Below are positions 9,929 through 29,720 of a stretch of 33,116 nt of DNA, piece by piece. The notes beneath the pieces are model-generated. The model made no database searches. It saw only the letters and a program-made list of their open reading frames with translations, and was not told the origin of the DNA. The translations under genes were made by a program, and so were the position numbers. Location: positions 1-33,116 of the IMG/VR virus record IMGVR_UViG_3300020417_002350; one strand, 5' to 3'. Origin of the DNA: a virus. Positions within the stretch are counted from its first letter, which is position 1. Each line of letters begins with the position of its first letter.

Positions 9929-10462
9929 TCAGGCCCCACAAACACTGGAGACTTCGGCCGCGATGTCCCAGGCGGAGCGCAGCGCTGCACCGGTGATTGC
10001 CTCGGCCTCGAGGGCGAGGACCATCGGGCCAGCGCCAAGGCGGACATAGGGGGTCAGATGGCGATCGATGTTGAAGCTGTTTAAGCCTGCGAGCTGGTAG
10101 CTGTCCTCGATTTCGCGACCAGGCCTAAGCGCGCCATCACCTAGGCGAAAGCCTCGGCAATCCTGCGCCACGTGAATCGCTTCATGCCGGAGGGTGTCGA
10201 GGTTGTCTGCGGTGAAGGCCCTCTGCTCTCTGTCGACACAGATTCCGACCACAAGGTCTTTGCTGACGTAAAAGCCTTCGGCGTACTCGCAATGACCGCC
10301 CGCATCCCGTGTGACCGTTCGAACCGTGACACCATTTGCCCGCAGAGCGTCCTGCAAGGCTCTGTGAGCCGCGTCAAGGTCATTAGGCAAGCAAACACCA
10401 GCAGAAGCCAGCGAAACGGTTAGAGAGGCAGCCAGGGCAGTCCGTGTAAGTATTCGGATCAC
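9929..10462 (-). CDS. Secreted HExxH-motif protein, putative zinc metallopeptidase
   Basis: The 177-residue protein starts (GTG) with a signal peptide: basic MIRILTR, a hydrophobic core, and ASA before a likely cleavage near residue 21. Residues 90-101 read TLRHEAIHVAQD, a classic HExxH zinc-binding motif. Cysteines at about 24, 58, 75, 102 and 175 could form disulfides after export. There is no clear third zinc ligand motif, although EAEAITGAALRSAW (about 151-164) has candidate acidic residues. It sits among fibre genes with a GGAACACTCC motif 30 bases upstream and directly after a terminator, so it is probably expressed late. It may act on the cell envelope during lysis or entry. Peptidase activity is inferred from the motif alone. 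Confidence 0.72.
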   Translation of the reverse strand: MIRILTRTALAASLTVSLASAGVCLPNDLDAAHRALQDALRANGVTVRTVTRDAGGHCEYAEGFYVSKDLVVGICVDREQRAFTADNLDTLRHEAIHVAQDCRGFRLGDGALRPGREIEDSYQLAGLNSFNIDRHLTPYVRLGAGPMVLALEAEAITGAALRSAWDIAAEVSSVCGA

Positions 10463-11099: not shown

Positions 11100-11160
11100 T
11101 GGACAAAACGGGAAGTCGCTTTGGACAAAACGGGAAGTCCTATGGACAAAACGGGAAGTC
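11100..11160. repeat. Three 18-bp direct repeats (iteron-like)
   Basis: The unit TGGACAAAACGGGAAGTC occurs identically at 11100, 11122 and 11143. The spacing of 22 and 21 bp places copies on the same face of the helix. Spacers differ and the two step lengths are not both multiples of three, so a coding repeat is unlikely. The array lies next to an AT-rich stretch. Confidence 0.92.
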
Positions 11161-11163
11161 ATT

Positions 11164-11183
11164 AAAAAAGCCCCCGAAGGGGC
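11164..11183 (-). terminator. Intrinsic terminator after the 113-residue gene
   Basis: On the minus strand GCCCC-TTCG-GGGGC is followed by six T: a strong stem with a stable UUCG-type loop. Confidence 0.92.
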
Positions 11184-11189
11184 GGTGGA

Positions 11190-11531
11190 TCAGGCGGCGA
11201 CGTTGAGGCATCCGCAGGCTTTGAACTCCTGCTCTCTGGCCAGGGCTGCCTCGGGGTCGTTGTCGTTAGTCATGTCGTACTGCTCGGCGATGTAGGCCTG
11301 GACCTGTTCCCAGGTGGTGAGCTTGCGGAAGGCGTTGAGGCGGGTGAAGCCCTCAGTGCAGCCAAACTCTTTGGCGGTTTTGTAGAACTTGCGAGCCTGG
11401 GCTGCGGTGGTGATCTTGTCCTCAACCTTGGCGATGCCCCAGGTGGTGGTCTGAGTGACCAGGGCCTCGTCGCCGGTGATGCGGAAGGTCCAGTTGGCTT
11501 CGCCGTTGGTGAGGTGGTGAACGGTGGTCAT
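11190..11531 (-). CDS. Unknown 113-residue protein under an early-type promoter
   Basis: The protein begins MTTVHHLTNGEANWTFRITG and has a helical, charged body (KVEDKITTAAQARKFYKTAK) ending in a Cys-containing tail (FKACGCLNVAA). No family is recognised. The longer in-frame extension upstream would translate the promoter itself, so the ATG about 16 bases downstream of the predicted transcription start is preferred. It is a single-gene unit bounded by a TTGACA promoter and a strong terminator, as expected of an early host-takeover gene. That role is inference only. Confidence 0.72.
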   Translation of the reverse strand: MTTVHHLTNGEANWTFRITGDEALVTQTTTWGIAKVEDKITTAAQARKFYKTAKEFGCTEGFTRLNAFRKLTTWEQVQAYIAEQYDMTNDNDPEAALAREQEFKACGCLNVAA

Positions 11532-11553
11532 CGGTTCGTTTGCTGATGTCCCT

Positions 11554-11593
11554 GTTCTAACCGAGATACCCCAGCTTGTCAACACGTGCAACA
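11554..11593 (-). promoter_or_regulatory. Sigma70-like promoter, copy 1
   Basis: On the minus strand the order is TGTTGCACGTGTTGACA (perfect -35 at its end), 17 bp, TAGAAC (-10), then AGGG. The same layout occurs in two other places in this window. Confidence 0.8.
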
Positions 11594-11604
11594 TTCGGAC
11601 ACAT

Positions 11605-11874
11605 TCAGCCAGCGGGCAGGAGCCAGGGCTGCTGACGGAACATCAGGTCCTGCGCCGCAACCCACTCCTCAGGCGAATAACGGGCCCAGACCAAACAGTC
11701 GCAGCACTGCTTGACCGTGTCCTCGTGAATGGTGAGCAGGCCTTCATCTGTGACCCAGCCAGGAGCCAGGTAGATCCAGAGGCCCTCGTTGTAGATACCG
11801 CCGGAGCGCTCATCACTCCAGTCCTCGACCCTGGGGTCTTGCTGCAGCTGCTTGTAAGTGCGTGGCTTTCTCAT
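11605..11874 (-). CDS. Unknown 89-residue protein
   Basis: The protein begins MRKPRTYKQLQQDPRVEDWS and contains GGIYNEGLWIYLAPGW and TIHEDTVKQCCDCLVWARYS. It is acidic and rich in Trp and Gln, with a CCDC cluster. No family is recognised. It is the second gene of a two-gene unit starting from promoter copy 2, six bases after the stop of the 53-residue gene. Good codon structure and tight spacing support it. Confidence 0.68.
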   Translation of the reverse strand: MRKPRTYKQLQQDPRVEDWSDERSGGIYNEGLWIYLAPGWVTDEGLLTIHEDTVKQCCDCLVWARYSPEEWVAAQDLMFRQQPWLLPAG

Positions 11875-11879
11875 GGTGT

Positions 11880-12041
11880 TCAGCTCCAGAGAGCCTTGAC
11901 TGCTTTAGCGGTGTTCTCGTGGTAGATGGCGTTGTCGCTCATGCGCTTGACCAGGAAGCGGAAGCCCTGAACCTTCTTGCCTGCAGTACCCAGGTCAACG
12001 ACTGCGTATCCGTTGATCAGGCCTTGTGCTTGGAGAGTCAT
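11880..12041 (-). CDS. Unknown 53-residue protein under promoter copy 2
   Basis: The small protein begins MTLQAQGLINGYAVVDLGTA and ends AIYHENTAKAVKALWS. It contains a beta-rich first half and a helical end. No family is recognised. Its ATG is about 25 bases from the -10 box of a TTGACA promoter; the leader shares an AACGAACCGA segment with the leader of the promoter copy 1 gene. Confidence 0.62.
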   Translation of the reverse strand: MTLQAQGLINGYAVVDLGTAGKKVQGFRFLVKRMSDNAIYHENTAKAVKALWS

Positions 12042-12065
12042 GGGTCGGTTCGTTTCGATGACCCT

Positions 12066-12106
12066 GTTCTAACCGAGATACCCCACACTGTCAACACGTG
12101 CAACAC
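12066..12106 (-). promoter_or_regulatory. Sigma70-like promoter, copy 2
   Basis: The minus strand reads TGTTGCACGTGTTGACA, 17 bp, TAGAAC, AGGG. The spacer shares GGGGTATCTCGGT with copy 1, so one is a duplication of the other. It starts immediately after a terminator. Confidence 0.82.
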
Positions 12107-12114
12107 AGCGCAAT

Positions 12115-12135
12115 AAAAAGGGGCCCGCAGGCCCC
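12115..12135 (-). terminator. Intrinsic terminator closing the lyase operon
   Basis: On the minus strand GGGGCC-TGC-GGGCCCC is followed by five T. It separates the phycobiliprotein lyase operon from promoter copy 2. Confidence 0.9.
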
Positions 12136-12138
12136 GTC

Positions 12139-12336
12139 TCAAAGCTTGTAGCTACCAGGGTCTCTCCTGTTCAGTACTTGCCCTCCGAACTCCTCCTTGC
12201 TCCATACGGCAGCCGCTACGGCCTCTTCGGTCAGCCCAAAGCTTCGGTCCACGCCATCGGGGTCGACCAGGGCCCACATGAAGCGGGTCTGGCGAGTTGT
12301 CCACCCTGGGGGCAGTTGGGATACGAATGAAGACAT
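12139..12336 (-). CDS. Unknown 65-residue protein, last gene of the lyase operon
   Basis: The protein begins MSSFVSQLPPGWTTRQTRFM and includes WALVDPDGVDRSFGLTEEAV and VWSKEEFGG. The layout resembles small cyanobacterial/cyanophage proteins in which a PPGW phrase precedes a beta hairpin and a helix, but I cannot name a family. A GTG one codon upstream is an alternative start. It is followed at once by a terminator. Confidence 0.6.
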   Translation of the reverse strand: MSSFVSQLPPGWTTRQTRFMWALVDPDGVDRSFGLTEEAVAAAVWSKEEFGGQVLNRRDPGSYKL

Positions 12337-12363
12337 CACCGAAGTATTTGAAAAGCAGAGAGG

Positions 12364-12498
12364 TCACTTGTGACGACCAGGATTGATGCAGCCAGGCTCC
12401 TCGCTGTTTGCTAGGGACAGCAGGTAGTAGACGACCCAGCAGACTCCGCCCATAAAGCAGGCAAAGCCGAAAGCCAGGGCAGCGATATGAATGCTCAC
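12364..12498 (-). CDS. Small membrane protein, 44 residues
   Basis: Starting at GTG, it reads MSIHIAALAFGFACFMGGVC followed by WVVYYLLSLANS: one transmembrane segment of about 25 residues, then a short polar Cys-containing tail (EEPGCINPGRHK). The GTG overlaps the stop of the gene before it (GTGA), as expected in an operon. Its role is unknown. Confidence 0.6.
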   Translation of the reverse strand: MSIHIAALAFGFACFMGGVCWVVYYLLSLANSEEPGCINPGRHK

Positions 12499-12821
12499 GA
12501 CTGCGGCGCCTGGTAGCCAAACAGCTTGGGCTTAATTTTTCCGTAGCCCTGCGTGATCTCCAGCACGTCAAACCCGGCATCCCAAAGCGCGTCGAAGATG
12601 TCGGACATTTTGAAGGCACGGATGCCAGAGACAGCAATCAGGTCGTCCTGATCCAAGCCGGCGGCCGCGGCCTGCTGCTCACGCAGTGGAGATCGAGGCC
12701 AATAGCGAACTAAGTGGACATCAGAGGGAAGATCTGCGTCGAGGGCGACCAGCTCTTCATGGCTTGTGTCTTCTGCCATTAGGTGGCAGTCGTATTGAAG
12801 AAGGTGCTCGAGGAGGTTCAT
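12495..12821 (-). CDS. Unknown 108-residue protein coupled to the lyase gene
   Basis: The acidic protein begins MNLLEHLLQYDCHLMAEDTS and contains ADLPSDVHLVRYWPRSPL and AFKMSDIFDALWDAGFDVLE. It has a mixed alpha/beta pattern and no membrane segment. Its ATG overlaps the stop of the phycobiliprotein lyase gene (ATGA), so the two are probably co-translated and may act in the same process. No family is recognised; a role in pigment or photosystem management is only a guess from position. Confidence 0.68.
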   Translation of the reverse strand: MNLLEHLLQYDCHLMAEDTSHEELVALDADLPSDVHLVRYWPRSPLREQQAAAAGLDQDDLIAVSGIRAFKMSDIFDALWDAGFDVLEITQGYGKIKPKLFGYQAPQS

Positions 12822-13291
12822 GCGATTCGGATTTCGGTGTACTGGCCAGAAAGAATCAACTCGCCTCCTTTGAAGCCAATGGTCTGGCGGAGTCGAGTGT
12901 TGTTGTCGACGAAGCGGATCTCTTCTCGGAAGTACTGGCCGTCGTATTCAGTGCGGAAGACGACCGTGTCGTCGTCAATACGCTCCATGGCCTGACTGGT
13001 CTGCGCGTCGGTGAAGTAGCCAACGTTTCGCTCGAGGAGATTGCCCTTTAGTTGGATGAGCATTTCTCCAGTAGTTGGACGCTCAACCTGAGCGCCTTTG
13101 AGGTCTTTGTGCGCCCAGGATTCCCAGTTGATGCGATAAACGTCGCCGTCGACCGGCTCCATGCCGAAGTAGGTAGTGATGATCGTTTGAGCCTTGGCCT
13201 GACGCTCGGAGCCGAAGTAGATGTAGCGACGCTCGCTGCGCCACTCACCACAGGAACGCTCGATCCAGTCAAGAAAGGGTGACGGGTTCAT
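12818..13291 (-). CDS. CpeS/CpcS-type phycobiliprotein lyase (auxiliary metabolic gene)
   Basis: S-type lyases attach linear tetrapyrrole pigments to cysteines of phycobiliproteins, the cyanobacterial light-harvesting antenna. The 157-residue protein follows the family pattern: WIERSCGEWRSERRYIYF (9-26) matches the N-terminal WxSxR region; LLERNVGYF (85-93) matches the conserved LxRxxGY; and FRTEYDGQYFREEIRFVDNN (112-131) with TRLRQTIGFKGG and YTEIRI matches the final strands (ERIWF, NxRLR, SEIR). Length is slightly under the usual 170-200. I chose MNPSPFL because upstream sequence does not fit the family. It opens a four-gene minus-strand unit, divergent from a fibre cassette. I recognise the S-type over the T-type (CpeT) from these motifs; the pigment and the target protein cannot be read from sequence. 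Confidence 0.82.
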   Translation of the reverse strand: MNPSPFLDWIERSCGEWRSERRYIYFGSERQAKAQTIITTYFGMEPVDGDVYRINWESWAHKDLKGAQVERPTTGEMLIQLKGNLLERNVGYFTDAQTSQAMERIDDDTVVFRTEYDGQYFREEIRFVDNNTRLRQTIGFKGGELILSGQYTEIRIA

Positions 13292-13333
13292 CCTATTACT
13301 GTACGAACACTTACAAGTTATCGGCGAGCATTC

Positions 13334-13342
13334 GGAACCCTG
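13334..13342 (+). promoter_or_regulatory. GGAACCCTG motif upstream of fibre cassette 1
   Basis: CGGAACCCTGG on the plus strand lies 29 bases before the ATG. Here the motif follows the plus-strand genes, as it does for the two other cassettes. Confidence 0.65.
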
Positions 13343-13362
13343 GACCAGCAACGCCTCTATGG

Positions 13363-14244
13363 ATGGCCTACACCAAAACCCATCAGTCGACCATCCAAGT
13401 CTCTACGACTGCATCCAGCGAAGAACTTAGTGGATACAATCAAGCCTTTAGAGAGATTCTCAGTACCTGGCTTCCAACTCGGGGCTGGGCTGTTACCGAG
13501 CACTCCAACAATTCAGACAGCGGCATAAACAATCACTTCCATTGCTCAAAAGACATCCAATGCGTGGGTGGAACGACCCAAACATTGAGTTTTGGGCTGC
13601 ATATACACAATGACCAAAGCCACGTTGACTGGACTTGGTACAACGGCAGCAACAATATGTATAGCGACGTCGGCGGAGTCGCGTTCCCAGCGGGAAATTT
13701 CTTTTTAAGCGAAAACAGCATTTACATCGACGGCGTTTTTGAGATGTGGTCGCACGATACAGACCCTGACTCGTTTGTCCTCATTGTCCGAGGTAACACC
13801 AATTTCCGGCTGCTTGGCTTTATGCCGCCTGCTGGCAGTCTGTTTCGGGCAGACTTAGAAACCAACGACACATACGCTCCCTGGAGCATGTGCATGTTGC
13901 CATTGTTTAAGGACAACCCAGCATTCGCGAATGCAACTCCTCTCGCGACGACTGCTTGGGTTGGTGACTTTCAAGACCTAAGGCGGACAAGTGACTCTCT
14001 CCCCTTTGTGATTCACAACTACGGAGTTCTGGGCATGACCGATGGCGACGCGCAATTCGCTCTGATCAACGACCCCGACGTGTCGACGCTGCTTGCTCAG
14101 GACAAAGCACACGCTCAACTTCAGGGTCGCGCCGATCAGGTCCATTCGGTGCAGATTGGCGCTAACTACTACATCGCGTTAGGCCTGCCATCAACCAGGG
14201 CTCGGCTTCTGCTTAACACTGGCACTGTGAACCTGGAGGACTGA
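13363..14244 (+). CDS. Putative receptor-binding/fibre protein, cassette 1
   Basis: The 293-residue protein begins MAYTKTHQSTIQVSTTASSE. It shares phrases with two other plus-strand proteins in the window: LPTRGWAVTEHSN (others: LPSRGWTTHV, LPSRGWTVTK), then FEMWSHDTDPDSFVLIVRGN and LGFMPPAGS (cassette 2: WEMWTSDQDTDSFLIVAKGN, IAYMPPTGS), and the C-terminal VQIGANYYIALGLPSTRARL / LLNTG. It is a soluble, beta-rich protein with no signal peptide, consistent with a virion tip protein. Upstream in-frame residues do not match the paralogues, so I start at MAYTK. Its stop overlaps the next ATG (TGATGG). The fibre role is inferred from composition and context. Confidence 0.78.
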   Translation: MAYTKTHQSTIQVSTTASSEELSGYNQAFREILSTWLPTRGWAVTEHSNNSDSGINNHFHCSKDIQCVGGTTQTLSFGLHIHNDQSHVDWTWYNGSNNMYSDVGGVAFPAGNFFLSENSIYIDGVFEMWSHDTDPDSFVLIVRGNTNFRLLGFMPPAGSLFRADLETNDTYAPWSMCMLPLFKDNPAFANATPLATTAWVGDFQDLRRTSDSLPFVIHNYGVLGMTDGDAQFALINDPDVSTLLAQDKAHAQLQGRADQVHSVQIGANYYIALGLPSTRARLLLNTGTVNLED

Positions 14245-14453
14245 TGGCCATCAATCTGACCGGTAGCAATCAGACGACATTTTCGTTCAGCACTTCAGCG
14301 CTTAACCTAAACGAATCGACTCTTGCGTTCAGCGTCGTGCCGCTCGAACTGAAACAAACAACTCTTGAGGGTGTCAAGTACTGGACCACATCAACATTCA
14401 CGCCGCCTCTTAAGCCAAGCAACGGATTTCTCTATCCAAGGCGCCAAGATTGA
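14244..14453 (+). CDS. Companion protein of cassette 1
   Basis: The 69-residue protein begins MAINLTGSNQTTFSFSTSAL and is rich in Thr, Ser and Leu with a beta pattern (TLAFSVVPLELKQTTLEG). It overlaps the stop of the larger protein by one base. The two other plus-strand cassettes have a companion at the same position (95 and 134 residues). The sequences of the three companions differ, but the arrangement is the same. It may be a fibre tip, chaperone or adaptor. Confidence 0.65.
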   Translation: MAINLTGSNQTTFSFSTSALNLNESTLAFSVVPLELKQTTLEGVKYWTTSTFTPPLKPSNGFLYPRRQD

Positions 14454-14459
14454 TGGCAT

Positions 14460-14484
14460 AAAAAAAGGAGCCCGGAGGCTCCTT
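14460..14484 (-). terminator. Intrinsic terminator between convergent genes
   Basis: On the minus strand GGAGCC-TCCG-GGCTCC is followed by seven T, ending the 106-residue gene. On the plus strand the same hairpin has only a weak TTCT tail, so termination of cassette 1 there is less certain. Confidence 0.88.
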
Positions 14485-14491
14485 CTAAAGA

Positions 14492-14812
14492 TTAGTCCCG
14501 CTGGCGCCAGTCGTCAGTTTTGTCTTGCTTAAACCAAGCAGCAATTTCTTCGACACTATTGAAACCATCGACAATGTGATTCGATGGATCTGGATCACCC
14601 AGGTCCATCTGATTCATGAAATCGTCAAGACTGCCTGGTTGCATATCAGGGTTGTTTGCTTTGCGGCGTGCTTTGCGAAGCATTTCTGATGCGCTGCGAT
14701 TTGCTTTGCTGAGCTTTTCGGCCCATATCATGTCGTCGAGTTTGACCTCTTCGCCATTGGCAATGCGCTCACAAATAAACTCGAGTCGGAGGCGATATTG
14801 CGTTGAAAGCAT
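14492..14812 (-). CDS. Unknown 106-residue conserved-looking phage protein
   Basis: The charged, helical protein begins MLSTQYRLRLEFICERIANG and contains VKLDDMIWAEKLSKANRSAS and MLRKARRKANNPD. The first 55 residues resemble, from memory, small phage proteins with a DDMxWxxKxxxxNR phrase of unknown function. The second half is acidic (DPDPSNHIVDGFNSVEEIAA). Unlike most genes here it has a clear Shine-Dalgarno-like GGAAAGGGGA just before the ATG, which supports the start. It is the last gene of a minus-strand group before a terminator. Confidence 0.72.
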   Translation of the reverse strand: MLSTQYRLRLEFICERIANGEEVKLDDMIWAEKLSKANRSASEMLRKARRKANNPDMQPGSLDDFMNQMDLGDPDPSNHIVDGFNSVEEIAAWFKQDKTDDWRQRD

Positions 14813-14839
14813 GTCCCCTTTCCTTTTGATGATGTTGGG

Positions 14840-14998
14840 TTAGTCGATGTCGCCAGTCAGAGCTAGGTAGCGATCGAAGAGCTTGGTGATGGCCTGCTGC
14901 AGGTGGCTGGCCTGAGTGGTTTTGCCCTCAAGGAGCGCGTCTTCACGGTGCTCTCGCAGGGCTTTAATCTGCTCGAGCACGGCGTCGGCGTAATTCAT
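14840..14998 (-). CDS. Small helical protein, 52 residues
   Basis: The protein begins MNYADAVLEQIKALREHRED and is almost entirely helical and charged (LEGKTTQASHLQQAITKLFD). It could form a coiled coil. A GTTCGAAC motif lies about 15 bases upstream of the ATG, a second promoter-like family in this window. The function is unknown. Confidence 0.62.
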   Translation of the reverse strand: MNYADAVLEQIKALREHREDALLEGKTTQASHLQQAITKLFDRYLALTGDID

Positions 14999-15037
14999 AG
15001 GGTTGTTAATGTTCGAACGTTGACAGGCTATCGGTGA

Positions 15038-15187
15038 TCAACGTTTTTTCCGCTTCTTGGCTGTCTTGGCCGCGGCCTTAAAAGCTGAAGCAGTAGGGGC
15101 GCCCTTTTGGCCAGGCTTACGCATCTTCTCGCCAGAGCCGGCAGCGATCCGTTTTTTCTTGTTGTTGATGTTCCGGTAAAGGCTCAC
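15038..15187 (-). CDS. Small strongly basic protein, 49 residues
   Basis: Starting at GTG, it reads MSLYRNINNKKKRIAAGSGE and ends AKTAKKRKKR, with over a third Lys/Arg. Small proteins of this style (LYxNINxKKKR then KxxGxxGAP) occur near structural genes in marine phages, by memory. The GTG overlaps the stop of the 25-residue gene upstream (GTGA). It may bind nucleic acid in the virion or act as a scaffold; that is inference. Confidence 0.62.
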   Translation of the reverse strand: MSLYRNINNKKKRIAAGSGEKMRKPGQKGAPTASAFKAAAKTAKKRKKR

Positions 15188-15261
15188 TTTTTGCCTCCCT
15201 TCTTCTTGTAGGGCTTCTTGCCGGAGACTTTGCCGGTCTTGATGTTGTACGTGGTGGGCAT
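15184..15261 (-). CDS. Tiny basic protein, 25 residues
   Basis: The peptide reads MPTTYNIKTGKVSGKKPYKK then KGGKK. Like the basic protein it overlaps (GTGA), it is Lys-rich. A GGAACCCTATG motif lies 30 bases before the ATG, the usual spacing. The coupling and the motif are the main support for such a short gene. Confidence 0.5.
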   Translation of the reverse strand: MPTTYNIKTGKVSGKKPYKKKGGKK

Positions 15262-15283
15262 GAGTGCACCTTGAGGTCGCCAT

Positions 15284-15307
15284 AGGGTTCCTCCACTTCG
15301 GAACCCT
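15284..15307. promoter_or_regulatory. Back-to-back motif pair between divergent genes
   Basis: AGGGTTCC and GGAACCCT form a perfect 8-bp inverted repeat with an 8-base centre. The left copy reads toward the small basic proteins (30 bases to the ATG), the right copy toward fibre cassette 2 (35 bases to the ATG). It may be two divergent promoters, or a single hairpin or operator. Confidence 0.7.
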
Positions 15308-15334
15308 GGGGCAGCCAAATGAGCCCAGCCCGTC

Positions 15335-16186
15335 ATGACCTGGTCCAAGGTTTACACCTCAACCGTGCCCGTTAATGATTTCGACTCTGATGGAGGGACG
15401 TCGCTACTCGGAACTCTCGACGAATTCTTCGACACGTGGTTGCCGTCTCGTGGCTGGACGACTCACGTGGGGGTAAGTCGGCCAAGCAATGTGACTGGCT
15501 ACTACCACTGGTGGATGGATAAGGCGATCCAGTGCCTCGACGGCAGCTACTACAACCACCGGGTCGAGTTCGTCCTTGACCCAAGCACAGCCGAAAACTT
15601 TGGCTGGAAAACCTGGGCCTCTGGCGTTGCAGCCGACACTTCCCATAACAACCCCGCCATAACCAGCAATGCACTAACCGTGGCAATCGAGGGCTCTTGG
15701 GAGATGTGGACCTCTGATCAAGACACCGATTCGTTTTTGATTGTCGCCAAGGGCAACCCTCGAACCCTGATCGCCTACATGCCGCCAACGGGGTCAATCA
15801 TCAAAAACCGAGGCAACGGGACCACCCAGCCAATGAAGGTCATGCCTTGCATCCCAAGTGATGGCGCATCAGCGGGCAACTGGCACAGCAACGCCAGTCG
15901 TTATGGTCATCACCCAGCAATCAGGCCTTACAGCCCCTCCTCGATCAACCATCTGGGCCAGGTCATCAAGTTCAACGCTCAGTTCTGCAACGTTGGAACA
16001 GGGACGACCATGGAGCCTGGATTCGTGACGTCGACCAACGATTGCGCCATGCTTTACCAGGCCGAAGACGTCGACGAGTTGGACAACATCGGCACGCTGC
16101 AGGTTGGCACCGAGTACTTCATCCGAGTCGGTCTCAGCGGCAGCGCCCTGCTGTTCAGCACTGGAACAACTGACCCAGGCTACTGA
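15335..16186 (+). CDS. Putative receptor-binding/fibre protein, cassette 2
   Basis: The 283-residue protein begins MTWSKVYTSTVPVNDFDSDG. Shared phrases with cassette 1 include FFDTWLPSRGWTTHV, DKAIQCLDGSYYNHR, WEMWTSDQDTDSFLIVAKGN and IAYMPPTGSI; with cassette 3 it shares the MTWS start and the SRGWT phrase. The C-terminal IGTLQVGTEYFIRVGL and LLFSTGTTD match the ends of both paralogues. It has no signal peptide or membrane segment. Its TGA overlaps the companion's ATG. The fibre role is inferred from the duplication pattern and beta-rich composition; no catalytic motif is visible. Confidence 0.78.
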   Translation: MTWSKVYTSTVPVNDFDSDGGTSLLGTLDEFFDTWLPSRGWTTHVGVSRPSNVTGYYHWWMDKAIQCLDGSYYNHRVEFVLDPSTAENFGWKTWASGVAADTSHNNPAITSNALTVAIEGSWEMWTSDQDTDSFLIVAKGNPRTLIAYMPPTGSIIKNRGNGTTQPMKVMPCIPSDGASAGNWHSNASRYGHHPAIRPYSPSSINHLGQVIKFNAQFCNVGTGTTMEPGFVTSTNDCAMLYQAEDVDELDNIGTLQVGTEYFIRVGLSGSALLFSTGTTDPGY

Positions 16187-16473
16187 TGGCTCTCGAGGTA
16201 TTTAGCGGGAGCAGTGTCACGCTCCCCGTGCTTAGCGGCACTGCAGTCCACTCGGAGGTCGACGTTGTCACCATCCCCTCCGGTGGCATTTATGTGCCGA
16301 TAGGGCTGGACTTTTCCAGCATTGTTGAAGACGGTTTCACGCAGATCAATGCTGACTTTTCTAGGCAGGCTGCATCGTCTTCTTTTACCGAGGTCAATGT
16401 CGGCGGCAGTGGTGACACAGTTCCTAAAGTTGGCATCATTTTTCCGCGCGGTGTTCCGCTTTTCTGCGCATAG
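16186..16473 (+). CDS. Companion protein of cassette 2
   Basis: The 95-residue beta-rich protein begins MALEVFSGSSVTLPVLSGTA and continues VVTIPSGGIYVPIGLDFSSI. It is coupled to the larger gene by a one-base overlap. Its stop codon overlaps the GGAACCCTTGG motif of cassette 3. It occupies the same position as the companions of the other cassettes; its function is unknown. Confidence 0.65.
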   Translation: MALEVFSGSSVTLPVLSGTAVHSEVDVVTIPSGGIYVPIGLDFSSIVEDGFTQINADFSRQAASSSFTEVNVGGSGDTVPKVGIIFPRGVPLFCA

Positions 16474-16481
16474 GAACCCTT
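16473..16481 (+). promoter_or_regulatory. GGAACCCTT motif upstream of cassette 3
   Basis: AGGAACCCTTGG lies 30 bases before the ATG of the third cassette, and overlaps the stop codon of the previous gene. Confidence 0.6.
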
Positions 16482-16502
16482 GGGCACTGTCGAGTGTCCT
16501 TC

Positions 16503-17318
16503 ATGACTTGGTCCATAGCTCATCAGGCGAATTTCGACCTCTCTGGCGCGAATGGATACAGCGCCGCGCATGACTACCACTTCCTGACCTTCCTGCCATC
16601 GAGGGGGTGGACGGTAACCAAGGGACAGCCGACGAACGGCAGCCTGCCAACCACTAACAACGCGATCTATCAGTGCAGCAAAACCTTCACGCTGCCTGAC
16701 GCAACAACAACTACCAAGCACTGGGTCTATCACCTCCGATTCGATTTCGGCATTGTGGAGACCTACTCATGGGACAACGTTGACTTCGGTACTTCTGCGG
16801 TAACTCTGAGGTCAGAGAGCAATGTGATGTCCGTATTAGGCGGCCAAGGCAACAACACTGAATTCACGTGGTTGGCTTCTGATGAACATCAAGATGCTTG
16901 GATTATGCTGAGCGCTGACAACACTTACGTCGGCGGCGCAAGCATTCCTGTCGACGGGTGGCTGCATAACGGATACGACAATTTATACCCTGGATTGATC
17001 GCAAACAGCAACGGATATTTTTGCATAAAAGACGCAAGTTCTGGGTATTTTGGGTTCATAGGGAACACCGTAGTCAACAGTTACCTGATGACAAATACCT
17101 TCTTTTATGCCACAGCAAACACTGCCGGCAATTACTCATACAACACACTAAATGATTTTTATTTGCGGATGAATGGAACACAAATCAGCACTACAGCCAT
17201 GAGCGCCACTGGGCCGGCCTCTGTACTGATCGACGGGCGCTACTACCTCGACCTCCGTCCGAACAGCAACACCTCATTGATGCTCGACACCGATCAGACT
17301 GATCTAGGTGTTCTCTGA
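16503..17318 (+). CDS. Putative receptor-binding/fibre protein, cassette 3
   Basis: The 271-residue protein begins MTWSIAHQANFDLSGANGYS. An upstream GTG would add three residues, but MTWS matches cassette 2, so the ATG is chosen. Shared features are FLPSRGWTVTKG, a central FTWLASDEHQDAWIMLSADN at the place of the MW..D.DSF segment, and the C-terminal VLIDGRYYLDLRPNSNTSLM. It is the most diverged of the three paralogues, and its second half is richer in A+T than the surroundings (about 16980-17160). It ends with a TGATGG overlap to its companion. It is a probable fibre or receptor-binding protein. Confidence 0.76.
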   Translation: MTWSIAHQANFDLSGANGYSAAHDYHFLTFLPSRGWTVTKGQPTNGSLPTTNNAIYQCSKTFTLPDATTTTKHWVYHLRFDFGIVETYSWDNVDFGTSAVTLRSESNVMSVLGGQGNNTEFTWLASDEHQDAWIMLSADNTYVGGASIPVDGWLHNGYDNLYPGLIANSNGYFCIKDASSGYFGFIGNTVVNSYLMTNTFFYATANTAGNYSYNTLNDFYLRMNGTQISTTAMSATGPASVLIDGRYYLDLRPNSNTSLMLDTDQTDLGVL

Positions 17319-17722
17319 TGGCTAACTTTGTCACCTTCGGCGGCAATCAACTGCGGTTTGAGAATCAACCAGGGCACACCTATATCAGCTTGTTAGGTGC
17401 AAATGGCTTGAGCTACAGAAGCAGCAAGCTGAGCCATCTGACGATCCTTGATCGGGCCTTCCCGTCAACACAGTCACGAATAAGCCTGCTGGGCGCGAAT
17501 GGCCTGAGTTTCAGGAGCAGCAAGGTCAGCCACCTCAGGGTTCTCAGTCAGCCGTTTCCGTCAAGCCAAACACTTATCAGCCTCTTAGGGGTGAACGGCT
17601 TGAGCTTTAGAAGCAGCAAGGTCAAACACGTCAGGCTCTACAACCCACCTATTGGCGGAGGCAAGAGGGAAACCGATGGGATTGCGTGGCCCACAGGCGT
17701 TCAACGATTCGGCAACGACTGA
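17318..17722 (+). CDS. Companion protein of cassette 3 with three 33-residue repeats
   Basis: The 134-residue protein begins MANFVTFGGNQLRFENQPGH and contains three tandem repeats of about 33 residues, each built on ISLLGANGLSFRSSKVSHL (variants: GLSYRSSKLSH, LLGVNGLSFRSSKVKH) followed by a PFPSSQT-type spacer. Such regular beta repeats suggest a solenoid or trimeric shaft. The last 25 residues are Gly/Arg-rich and may be unfolded. It is the largest of the three companions. Its stop codon abuts the stop of the minus-strand holin-like gene (TGATCA), leaving no space for a terminator. Confidence 0.75.
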   Translation: MANFVTFGGNQLRFENQPGHTYISLLGANGLSYRSSKLSHLTILDRAFPSTQSRISLLGANGLSFRSSKVSHLRVLSQPFPSSQTLISLLGVNGLSFRSSKVKHVRLYNPPIGGGKRETDGIAWPTGVQRFGND

Positions 17723-26958: not shown

Positions 26959-27114
26959 CTAAGTCTTCCTGCGGCGGAAGGCTTCGATCTGGGCATCGAT
27001 CAGGTCCTTAAGAACCTTGGCGTTGACGAGAGGAGGATGGCGGCGCTGCGGGCCGCGATAAGGAGAGGGGGCGAAGAGCATTGGATCATCGAGAAGGGTA
27101 AGAACCGTGATCAC
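26959..27114 (-). CDS. Unknown 51-residue protein overlapping the RNR end
   Basis: With a GTG start it reads MITVLTLLDDPMLFAPSPYR then GPQRRHPPLVNAKVLKDLID and a basic helical end. The GTG overlaps the RNR stop (GTGA), so it is probably translated in the same unit. A terminator follows shortly after. No family is recognised. Confidence 0.57.
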   Translation of the reverse strand: MITVLTLLDDPMLFAPSPYRGPQRRHPPLVNAKVLKDLIDAQIEAFRRRKT

Positions 27115-29720
27115 GCCTTGCCCTCACGCTCAGCCTTTTCTGCTGCAGCCACACAAGCGGCTGAACTACAAGCGGACTCAGAAGCGACCAGCTCGCGGGT
27201 GTCGTCGTGACGATTTAGAGCAGAGCGGAAGTCGCTGACCTTGCGGGCCTCGACATCAGCGCTGAGGCGGTCGTAAGTCTCCTTGTCGATGGGCTCGAAG
27301 GGGAGGCGAGGGAATGCACTGTTGCGTGCATCGAAGCGCTGGAGCAGAGCTGCGGAGATGTAGCCCTCGTCGGTCTGAATCGCTTCGTGGATGAGCTCAG
27401 ACAGATCGTCGATCTCGTCCTCGCGAAGCTCAATAGTGGCCGAGGTGTTGTGCGCGGTGTAGTGCTTTTGGACAGCCATCCAAAGACCGAATTGGGCACG
27501 GGCTGACAGCTTGTCGAGGTCGAAGGCGTCACAGCCAGGCAGGTTGGCCCAAGGCACCTCGGTCGGAATCTCGACCAACCACTCAGTCGAGCGGGGGTCG
27601 TTGATGTCGTTCAGGAGGTTGCCTTCTTCGTCACGCGCAGAAGGTGCGGGAATGACGGAGTAGCCAGCGTCGATGGCAGCCAGTGCCACTGGATCGTTCG
27701 CACCGAGAGTGATGCGGCGGATAAAGCGCTGAGCCTTGGGAGGGTGCCAGCCAGAGGAGGCGCCAGTCAGCAAGGACTTGGTGCCAGCAGGCTGGACGGT
27801 GGTCATGCGGTTGGGGACACGCAAGCCACGGGCTTCGCAGAACTCACGGACGGTGGTCTCGACTTCCTGGCGCCAGAAGGACAGGTAACCAGCCTCGGCG
27901 GTTTCGAAGCGCAGACCTTCAGCAGTGCGCGGACGGCCATCAAACATCCACTGGAGCCATTCAGCGCCAAAAGCTTTGACGAAGAAGTCGAACAGGCCAG
28001 TGAAAGAAACACCCACGATCGGGTCAATTTCGCGGGAGTAGGCGTAGCGCTCGTCCTTGAATTGATGGAAGAGCAGGGCGGCAACCTCGAGAGCACCGGC
28101 ACGGAAGGCGTCAGCCTGCTGCTGATCATCTTTCGGGTCGATGGTGTTCAGGTGAATCTCGGAGAGATTGCAGTGAAAGTCCTCGCCCAGGATCTCTCCA
28201 CAAGGGTTGAGGCCGTAACGCATCATCCGGTGATCAAGCTCGCGGGGGTCGCAGCTACTGGCCGCTGGGACAAGCTCGTCATCGGTCTGAACTGTCGACA
28301 GCTTGCAGAGAAAATCCCTCGCGGCGTCTTTGCCTTCTTCGACGTATGTCTTGATGAAGACGTTCTTGGTGTCGCGATCAGGCAACAGGTCGTGGTTTGA
28401 GCGCGCGATTGCCTCGGGCACGAATTGGATGGCACCCTCGCCGGATTGCACCTGCAGGGTCACAGCTTCCTTGACTTGCTCGAGGGTGGGGCGTGCATGG
28501 AAACAGCGGGTGTGGTTAGCCATCCGCAGGTTTTCCTTCACCGGATCGACGCGCCAGTTGCCCTCGGAGTCCTGCGAATAGAGCCCGAGCTTGGCGGTTG
28601 CTGCTTCTGCGTCATCGCTTGAAAATTGGCGCATACCAGCAGAGCGCCGAATGTTGCCAGCAACAATGCACGCAGCAGCTTCGTCAATAAGCAAGCAGCA
28701 CTCGATTGGGGTGAGTTGGCGTCCATGAGCGGAGGCGAGCAGAGCGATGACTTTCTCGAACAGGACAGGCAGCTTCACGGGGTTAGCGGTGCCACCGAAG
28801 CCCTTGAGCTTCTCGCCAGCGCCGCGAATTTGGCTCAGGTCGACAGTGACGTCGAGGTCATGGCCGCGGCTGAATGCCATGTCGATCAGAACCTGGTAGC
28901 CGTCGACCCATCCCTTGCGGCTATCGCCGACGATGATGGTGGCCTCGTCCTTGTCCCAGGAGACAGTTGTCACCTCATCGCCGCCAGGGCCATCGCCTAA
29001 GGGGGTCATCTCCTTCAGGGTCAGACGACGCATAACCGGCGGCAACTTGGCGACCTGGTCCTGCTCGAGGATGGCGCCAGTGCCAGAGCCCATCATCGCG
29101 AGCTCCATCATCAGGCCAAAGACCTCGGGGTCATTCACCGTCGTGTTGGTGCAGTTGTAGGCACCCGAATAGTTTTTGGGCGACCGGATCCAGGTTGTGC
29201 CACCCGTCCAAAGCCATCGACCGGAGGGGAGTGCGTGCTGCTGCTCGGCCATCGTGCGGACCAGGGCATCATCTTCTTCGCCAAGTTGACCCAGCTCGAC
29301 GATGTCATCGATGACACGCTCGACCATCTCCGCATAAGACTCGCGGGTGTTGTCCGCCTTGCGACGGCTATAGGTGCGATAGAAGACAGGGGCGCCAGAC
29401 GGCGCTTCGTCAGAAAACTCCGGCTTGTAGGGAGGAAAGTCAACCTCTTCTCTCTTCAACGCGAGGTTCAGCAGACCCACAACGGCGTCCGAGCTGATCC
29501 GACCGTGATGGTTAATGACACCATCGATAAAGAGATGAGGGACAACGGTCATGTCCTTCGGCGCCAACTCAGGGAGAGCGTCGACGTCGATGTATTCAAC
29601 AAAAGAGCGGCCATCAAGGCCGGTCTGTGAGGCAAAGGTCGCAAGGGCTTCGTCGATCCTTGCGTGCATGTCTCGGCAGGGCTCGCAGCGGTGTTCTGCG
29701 TGGTAGACGAACAGCTTCAT
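27111..29720 (-). CDS. nrdJ: Class II ribonucleotide reductase (B12-dependent, monomeric type) with an N-terminal thioredoxin-like domain
   Basis: The enzyme makes deoxynucleotides from ribonucleotides with a B12-generated radical. Residues 1-90 look like a thioredoxin/glutaredoxin fold: HRCEPCRDMH (CxxC at 12-15) and VVPHLFIDG (cis-Pro near 61). Then the catalytic domain follows: YNC (C190), GFGGTANP (about 308-314), IRRSAGMR (357-364), NPCGE (506-509; radical Cys 507 and Glu 509), HCNLSEI (C517), and VQPAGTKSLLTGASSGWHP (642-660). The C-terminal CSSAAC (C851 and C856) matches the CxxxxC redox pair of the monomeric type. At 869 residues it is about 100 longer than usual because of the N-terminal domain, which may supply electrons to the enzyme directly. 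Class II monomeric RNRs are known in cyanobacteria and their phages. It sits in a small-gene unit ended by a terminator. Confidence 0.93.
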   Translation of the reverse strand: MKLFVYHAEHRCEPCRDMHARIDEALATFASQTGLDGRSFVEYIDVDALPELAPKDMTVVPHLFIDGVINHHGRISSDAVVGLLNLALKREEVDFPPYKPEFSDEAPSGAPVFYRTYSRRKADNTRESYAEMVERVIDDIVELGQLGEEDDALVRTMAEQQHALPSGRWLWTGGTTWIRSPKNYSGAYNCTNTTVNDPEVFGLMMELAMMGSGTGAILEQDQVAKLPPVMRRLTLKEMTPLGDGPGGDEVTTVSWDKDEATIIVGDSRKGWVDGYQVLIDMAFSRGHDLDVTVDLSQIRGAGEKLKGFGGTANPVKLPVLFEKVIALLASAHGRQLTPIECCLLIDEAAACIVAGNIRRSAGMRQFSSDDAEAATAKLGLYSQDSEGNWRVDPVKENLRMANHTRCFHARPTLEQVKEAVTLQVQSGEGAIQFVPEAIARSNHDLLPDRDTKNVFIKTYVEEGKDAARDFLCKLSTVQTDDELVPAASSCDPRELDHRMMRYGLNPCGEILGEDFHCNLSEIHLNTIDPKDDQQQADAFRAGALEVAALLFHQFKDERYAYSREIDPIVGVSFTGLFDFFVKAFGAEWLQWMFDGRPRTAEGLRFETAEAGYLSFWRQEVETTVREFCEARGLRVPNRMTTVQPAGTKSLLTGASSGWHPPKAQRFIRRITLGANDPVALAAIDAGYSVIPAPSARDEEGNLLNDINDPRSTEWLVEIPTEVPWANLPGCDAFDLDKLSARAQFGLWMAVQKHYTAHNTSATIELREDEIDDLSELIHEAIQTDEGYISAALLQRFDARNSAFPRLPFEPIDKETYDRLSADVEARKVSDFRSALNRHDDTRELVASESACSSAACVAAAEKAEREGKA

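Follow-up and report, generated by a model that had tools for sequence, protein, structure and literature searches.

Phycobiliprotein lyase genes of the S type have been described in cyanophages before. In its accessible part, PMC10665884 reports such a gene in the cluster C T4-like cyanophages and in S-CBWM1, mentions a putative Synechococcus prophage with a relative, assigns the lyase genes of cluster A and cluster B cyanophages to the T type, and suggests a light-harvesting role. From this part of the report, the kind of finding described here is already known; the view of the sequence-only reading that an S-type lyase is less usual in cyanophages than a T-type one is fair, but S-type lyases had already been published. 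The T-type lyase, CpeT, is likewise a phage-borne phycobiliprotein lyase, but it belongs to another family. For characterised S-type lyases, the available portion of PMC7948978 places their action at the C82-type position, and that of PMC2327270 describes CpcS1 as binding bilin fast and handing it on slowly. The literature, as far as its accessible text goes, reports no activity for a phage S-type protein. In a literature search that covered few subscription papers, we found no paper on S-type lyases of cyanosiphoviruses and none in which S-CRES1 is named.

The DNA analysed in this study, called the window, is a whole virus record of 33,116 bases. Among cyanophages, its portal protein is closest to those of PSS2, S-CRES1-3 and S-CBS2 (46-49% identity), and the window is therefore taken for a fragment of a cyanosiphovirus, kin of these phages. 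S-CRES1, S-CRES2 and S-CRES3, in which GenBank annotates an S-type PBP lyase, match the window with 47-48% identity in the portal protein, over the matched part, and with 37-38% in the lyase. Two further genes on the minus strand are worth recording. The gene at 27111-29720 encodes a class II ribonucleotide reductase whose N-terminal part, in the same frame, resembles thioredoxin (Thioredoxin_3, E 9e-5; its 22.9 bits fall slightly short of the cut-off of 24.8). The gene at 9929-10462 encodes an HExxH protein (phrog_16003) of family c13, and 7 of 12 lyase-bearing loci compared have a member of this family downstream of the lyase.

Table 1. Features of the lyase operon and its boundaries, in window coordinates.
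Feature	Position	Strand	Basis or remark
S-type (CpeS/CpcS-family) phycobiliprotein lyase homologue, 157 aa	12818..13291	-	ATG at 13291; PF09367, fold
PHROG 485 protein, 108 aa, recurrent in cyanophages	12495..12821	-	phrog_485 profile
44-aa protein, GTG start, one hydrophobic stretch	12364..12498	-	sequence; L205 homologue
65-aa protein from ATG (66 aa if GTG 12339)	12139..12336	-	homologues in L002, L023, L027, L217
Intrinsic terminator closing the operon	12120..12135	-	GGGGCCTGCGGGCCCC + TTTTT
Lyase leader, homologous to the leader before PHROG 485 in L205	13292..13341	-	36/50 identical
Promoter-like repeat before the next operon (unit boundary)	12066..12094	-	TTGACA-17-TAGAAC

The sequence-only reading had described a four-gene operon at 12139-13291, bounded by a terminator, and these coordinates are right; the genes (157, 108, 44 and 65 aa) run from 13291 to 12139 on the minus strand. 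The lyase gene overlaps the 108-aa gene by 4 bp, the 108-aa gene overlaps the 44-aa gene by the same length, and a gap of about 25 bp precedes the 65-aa gene. Since homologues exist for all four ORFs, none of them is a chance ORF, and this explanation was ruled out. All six stem pairs of the terminator are G-C and it lies directly after the last stop; terminator-like sites number 4 in 2.6 kb compared with 2.2 expected from shuffles. When positions 11100-13700 were scanned with the sigma-70 consensus, no promoter-like site was obtained (0.8 expected). The TTGACA-17-TAGAAC element at 12094 is sub-threshold in that scan, and recurs at 11582 and 26896. This promoter-like repeat, GTTGCACGTGTTGACA...TTAGAACAGGG, heads the three minus-strand gene groups at these positions. 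The gene upstream of the operon is divergent and lies on the plus strand, with its chosen start at ATG 13363 in the frame 13279-14244, so that 71 bp separate the two starts. On the same strand, 13363-17722 holds three successive gene pairs, and their large members look paralogous because one protein of a related phage, L205, matches all three (43, 28 and 24% identity).

The first gene of the operon is a member of the S-type (CpeS/CpcS) family, as judged from its sequence and its predicted barrel, and the S-type family assignment proposed from the sequence alone is borne out. Its protein matches the PF09367 (CpeS) profile at E 8.1e-14, with 52.2 bits where the cut-off is 23.3 and residues 80-156 as the best stretch, and has no match in PHROGs or NCBIfam at E up to 1. 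A sequence search with the single protein retrieved 3BDR (E 2.8e-4) and 4TQ2 (E 0.022) from the PDB, and a search with the phage profile retrieved 4TQ2 (E 1.1e-5) and 3BDR (E 0.008). The structure prediction suggested earlier as a check was run with 18 viral sequences and gave an antiparallel beta-barrel of ten strands (pLDDT 90.5, pTM 0.83). With this model, Foldseek ranks 4tq2 (E 1.1e-8) and 3bdr (E 1.2e-7), both of the S family, first and second; in VIA, 3bdr is at rank 1 (Z 16.0, rmsd 1.6 over 126 residues) and 4tq2 at rank 3 (Z 14.0), in the company of BFA1 (5yvf, Z 14.1) and further barrels with Z of 12-14. As BFA1 and the other barrels score like 4tq2, the fold alone proves no function. 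The CpeT profile (PF06206) is absent among the Pfam matches of the lyase at E up to 1 and has no match in the window, and identity as a T-type lyase is ruled out by profile.

The predicted barrel fold and the family-wide residues are shared with the host CpcS/CpeS proteins 3BDR and 4TQ2, whose identity to the window lyase in structural alignments is 18-23%. Eleven residues, each present in at least 90% of the phage rows and of both host groupings, are kept in the window lyase: G15, W17, S19, R21, W56, R88, Y116, E123, R133, R135 and E153. Its Y23 and G75 are common to one host group. Between W56 and G75, the window lyase has 11-13 extra residues that are absent from most phage relatives. These residues, together with the long end branch of the window row in the lyase tree (length 1.72), suggest that its substrate may differ.

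Phage relatives of the lyase were found by tblastn in 15 records, all of Synechococcus phages, at 35-39% identity. The gene is annotated in S-CRES1-3 and S-CREM2 (S-type lyase) and in S-CBWM1 (CpcV). The lyases of the cluster C T4-like cyanophages (S-CREM2, S-H34, S-N03, S-B68) and of S-CBWM1 (cpcV) are of the same family and align over more than 90% of the protein, within the same range of identity. As in the window, there is a single S-type gene per cyanophage, but these genomes measure 139-175 kb and their lyases are without the extra residues between W56 and G75. No relative came from a first viral scan in which the window protein alone was the query, and at the DNA level the operon had no match in phages. 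With a profile-guided scan of IMG/VR, 20 lyase loci were obtained, and four more (L214, L217, L226, L234) were reached from the partner side.

The lyase tree has 65 rows, 25 from phages and 40 from a chosen part of the host loci; it omits L011, L021 and L028, which are copies or near-copies of L010, L020 and L004, and the four loci reached from the partner side, which were found later. A branch with 100/100 support sets all phage rows and 17 host rows apart from the rest of the tree, which includes the CpcS-III-like host rows; these stand in another part of the family tree than the window lyase, whose own placement has support of only 86/64. The tree does not show the phage rows to be a single clade. 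The 17 host rows nearest to the phage rows come from genomes of one cyanobacterial family, in which 100 of 151 genomes match the phage lyase model (best E 7e-23), some of the weaker matches coinciding with the loci of other family members. A recent capture from a host gene was considered and rejected: the closest host rows of the tree are far removed, and a scan of genome contigs (genome_contigs, phage-type, two peptide patterns) yielded no confirmed relative in 130 stretches, which is a weak negative. In four loci of the host paralogue nearest to the phage lyases (L163, L170, L178, L188), no phycobilisome gene was recognised by eye within 1.5 kb. The gene adjoining the paralogue in these loci, also by eye, is presumably that of a clock sensor kinase (SasA-like).

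The 74.7-kb IMG/VR record L205 comes from a sister phage, with several of the window genes at 55-91% identity and others at 24-49%. There, a homologue of the 108-aa protein (about 70%) adjoins a homologue of the 44-aa protein (L205:5237-5461, 61% over 41 aa), and a small Hli-type gene follows (L205:5604-5750; PF00504, E 2.2e-5, 25.4 bits compared with a cut-off of 22.3). The lyase-bearing record G006 also has an Hli-type match above the cut-off, located downstream of its lyase at a distance of about 1 kb. No S-type lyase was found in L205, a possibly incomplete record, by a search that was positive in 5 of 5 lyase-bearing records. The 50 bases before its 108-aa gene are the counterpart of the window lyase leader, and the match in Table 1 is the best of all window 50-mers, the runner-up having 28/50. 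In L205 this leader stands directly before PHROG 485 with no lyase, so the window lyase sits between a conserved leader and PHROG 485. The lyase was either gained in the window phage or lost in L205.

We propose that the gene is a cyanosiphovirus S-type lyase auxiliary metabolic gene whose product would attach host-made bilin to a host phycobiliprotein during infection, and we put the probability of this at roughly 0.6. The proposal draws on the family match, the predicted fold, the conserved residues, the phage relatives and the leader comparison with L205. During infection, the phage S-type protein would take up bilin made by the host, hold it inside its barrel and, by analogy with the characterised S-type lyases, pass it to the Cys-82-type site of a host phycobiliprotein, by which newly made antenna subunits would stay functional. 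A search of 19 records (L205 and 18 with a lyase, several of them fragmentary) gave no bilin reductase, so the bilin would be the host's. The lyase would be a module set between PHROG 485 and a leader that the phage already had, and the 108-, 44- and 65-aa genes, probably co-transcribed with it, would be general small phage genes. Against the proposal we count the position of the phage rows, which are apart from the CpcS-III-like and other host rows and grouped with host paralogues, the possibly different substrate of the window lyase, the similar fold scores of other barrel proteins, and the negative literature result on phage S-type activity.

A different use of the same protein would be bilin binding for phycobilisome dismantling or bilin scavenging instead of attachment. 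Pointing this way are the matches above the cut-off to the degradation adaptor NblA in G003 and G004, on the same strand as the lyase and 2.0 and 3.3 kb downstream of it, together with a match below the cut-off in S-CBWM1 (18.4 of 25 bits); the lack of a T-type lyase, as of a bilin reductase, in all 19 records; and the nearest host paralogue, without phycobilisome flanks recognisable by eye in the four host loci. The available part of PMC2327270 also notes non-lyase homologues in the S family, with a conceivable role in turnover. Nevertheless, just 2 of the 19 records have NblA above the cut-off, and as close relatives they count as one lineage; the 33-kb window fragment has no NblA, and its lyase keeps the family-wide residues. 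No S-type protein is known to detach bilins. We consider this use of the protein unlikely. In the two loci concerned, L018 (G003) and L021 (G004), it was further observed that an integrase-family protein lies between the lyase and NblA in L018. A broader version, in which the phage S-type proteins would form a viral branch that does not serve antenna construction but handles bilins during phycobilisome takedown by the phage, in some phages alongside NblA and with PHROG 485 as a recurrent cyanosiphovirus helper, seems to us a rather speculative and distinctly unlikely one.

The sequence-only reading had also suggested that the operon is a dedicated antenna-remodelling unit, in which all four genes would act jointly on the phycobilisome. 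Besides the gene overlaps, the neighbourhood of the lyase and PHROG 485 speaks for it. The 108-aa protein matches phrog_485 with E 1.1e-13 over residues 9-105. In a distance survey of 17 records, 15 of them with an S-type lyase, the distance between lyase and PHROG 485 is at most 1 kb in 6 of the 15 (G005-G009, S-CRES1) and at least 17 kb in 5 (G001, G003, G004, S-CREM2 and S-H34, the last two with more than 70 kb), and PHROG 485 was not found in 4 (G002, G010, S-CRES3, S-CBWM1). In IMG/VR, 84 PHROG 485 loci were obtained and 80 kept; the lyase is in the fetched stretch of 9 of the 80, of which 5 had been counted before and four are new close pairs. The order lyase, c12 (55-99 aa), PHROG 485, c9 (71-91 aa) occurs in 9 of the 12 lyase-bearing loci compared, which were chosen because PHROG 485 is close by or because they are kin of S-CRES; L023 is rearranged, and L003 and L012 are without such an order. 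In the window, the lyase and PHROG 485 adjoin, with neither c12 nor c9 in the compared stretch. In S-CRES1, PHROG 485 is likewise downstream of the lyase, but two genes on, with a 56-aa gene between them and no 44-aa homologue found in the locus.

On the other hand, the partners also occur without the lyase. Of 27 lyase loci, some of them flanked by little sequence, only 6 have a homologue of the 108-aa protein nearby. With tblastn at E up to 1, PHROG 485 was found in 77 phage records, the weakest rows being doubtful, and at most 15 of the 77 can be among the 15 S-lyase records. In Syn5 and S-TIP28 it stands directly before the DNA polymerase gene and downstream of the primase/helicase, and in S-TIP28 also downstream of an annotated thioredoxin. 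In L205, PHROG 485 and the 44-aa gene are kept in the absence of the lyase, and no homologue of the 44-aa protein was found in the 27 lyase loci, L205 being the only record with one. The homologues of the 65-aa protein (cluster c26; L002, L023, L027, L217) are located 3.7-4.7 kb upstream of their lyases, and a weak match is present in L003 (E 0.017). PHROG 485 itself gave a predicted model with pLDDT 88.6, which matches no PDB fold at E <= 0.001, a result that is no proof of a new fold, and its sequence gave nothing usable in Pfam, NCBIfam or the PDB. From the PHROG 485 records without a lyase, from L205 and from the distant 65-aa homologues, the dedicated unit is not supported, and we regard it as very unlikely. 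The coupling of the partners to the lyase in other phages holds only in part: the proximity of the lyase and PHROG 485 is real in one group of phages and is not general, and the 108-, 44- and 65-aa genes look like ordinary small phage genes and not dedicated lyase partners. The divergence of the lyase (35-47% to the compared relatives) and its absence from the searched record of the closest relative, L205, might suggest an acquired gene that is now decaying or neutral and plays no part any more; this is highly improbable given its intact frame, conserved residues, confidently predicted fold and position as the first gene behind a conserved leader.

The S-type lyase operon in a cyanosiphovirus is thus genuine, S-type lyases in cyanophages having been known beforehand. 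It adds one cyanosiphovirus to the few phages reported with S-type lyases, and adds the recurring lyase-PHROG 485 neighbourhood to the known picture. For comparison there is L205, a sister phage that has this leader and is naturally without the lyase. Phages may use S-type proteins either to maintain or to dismantle the antenna of the host, which can be tested directly.
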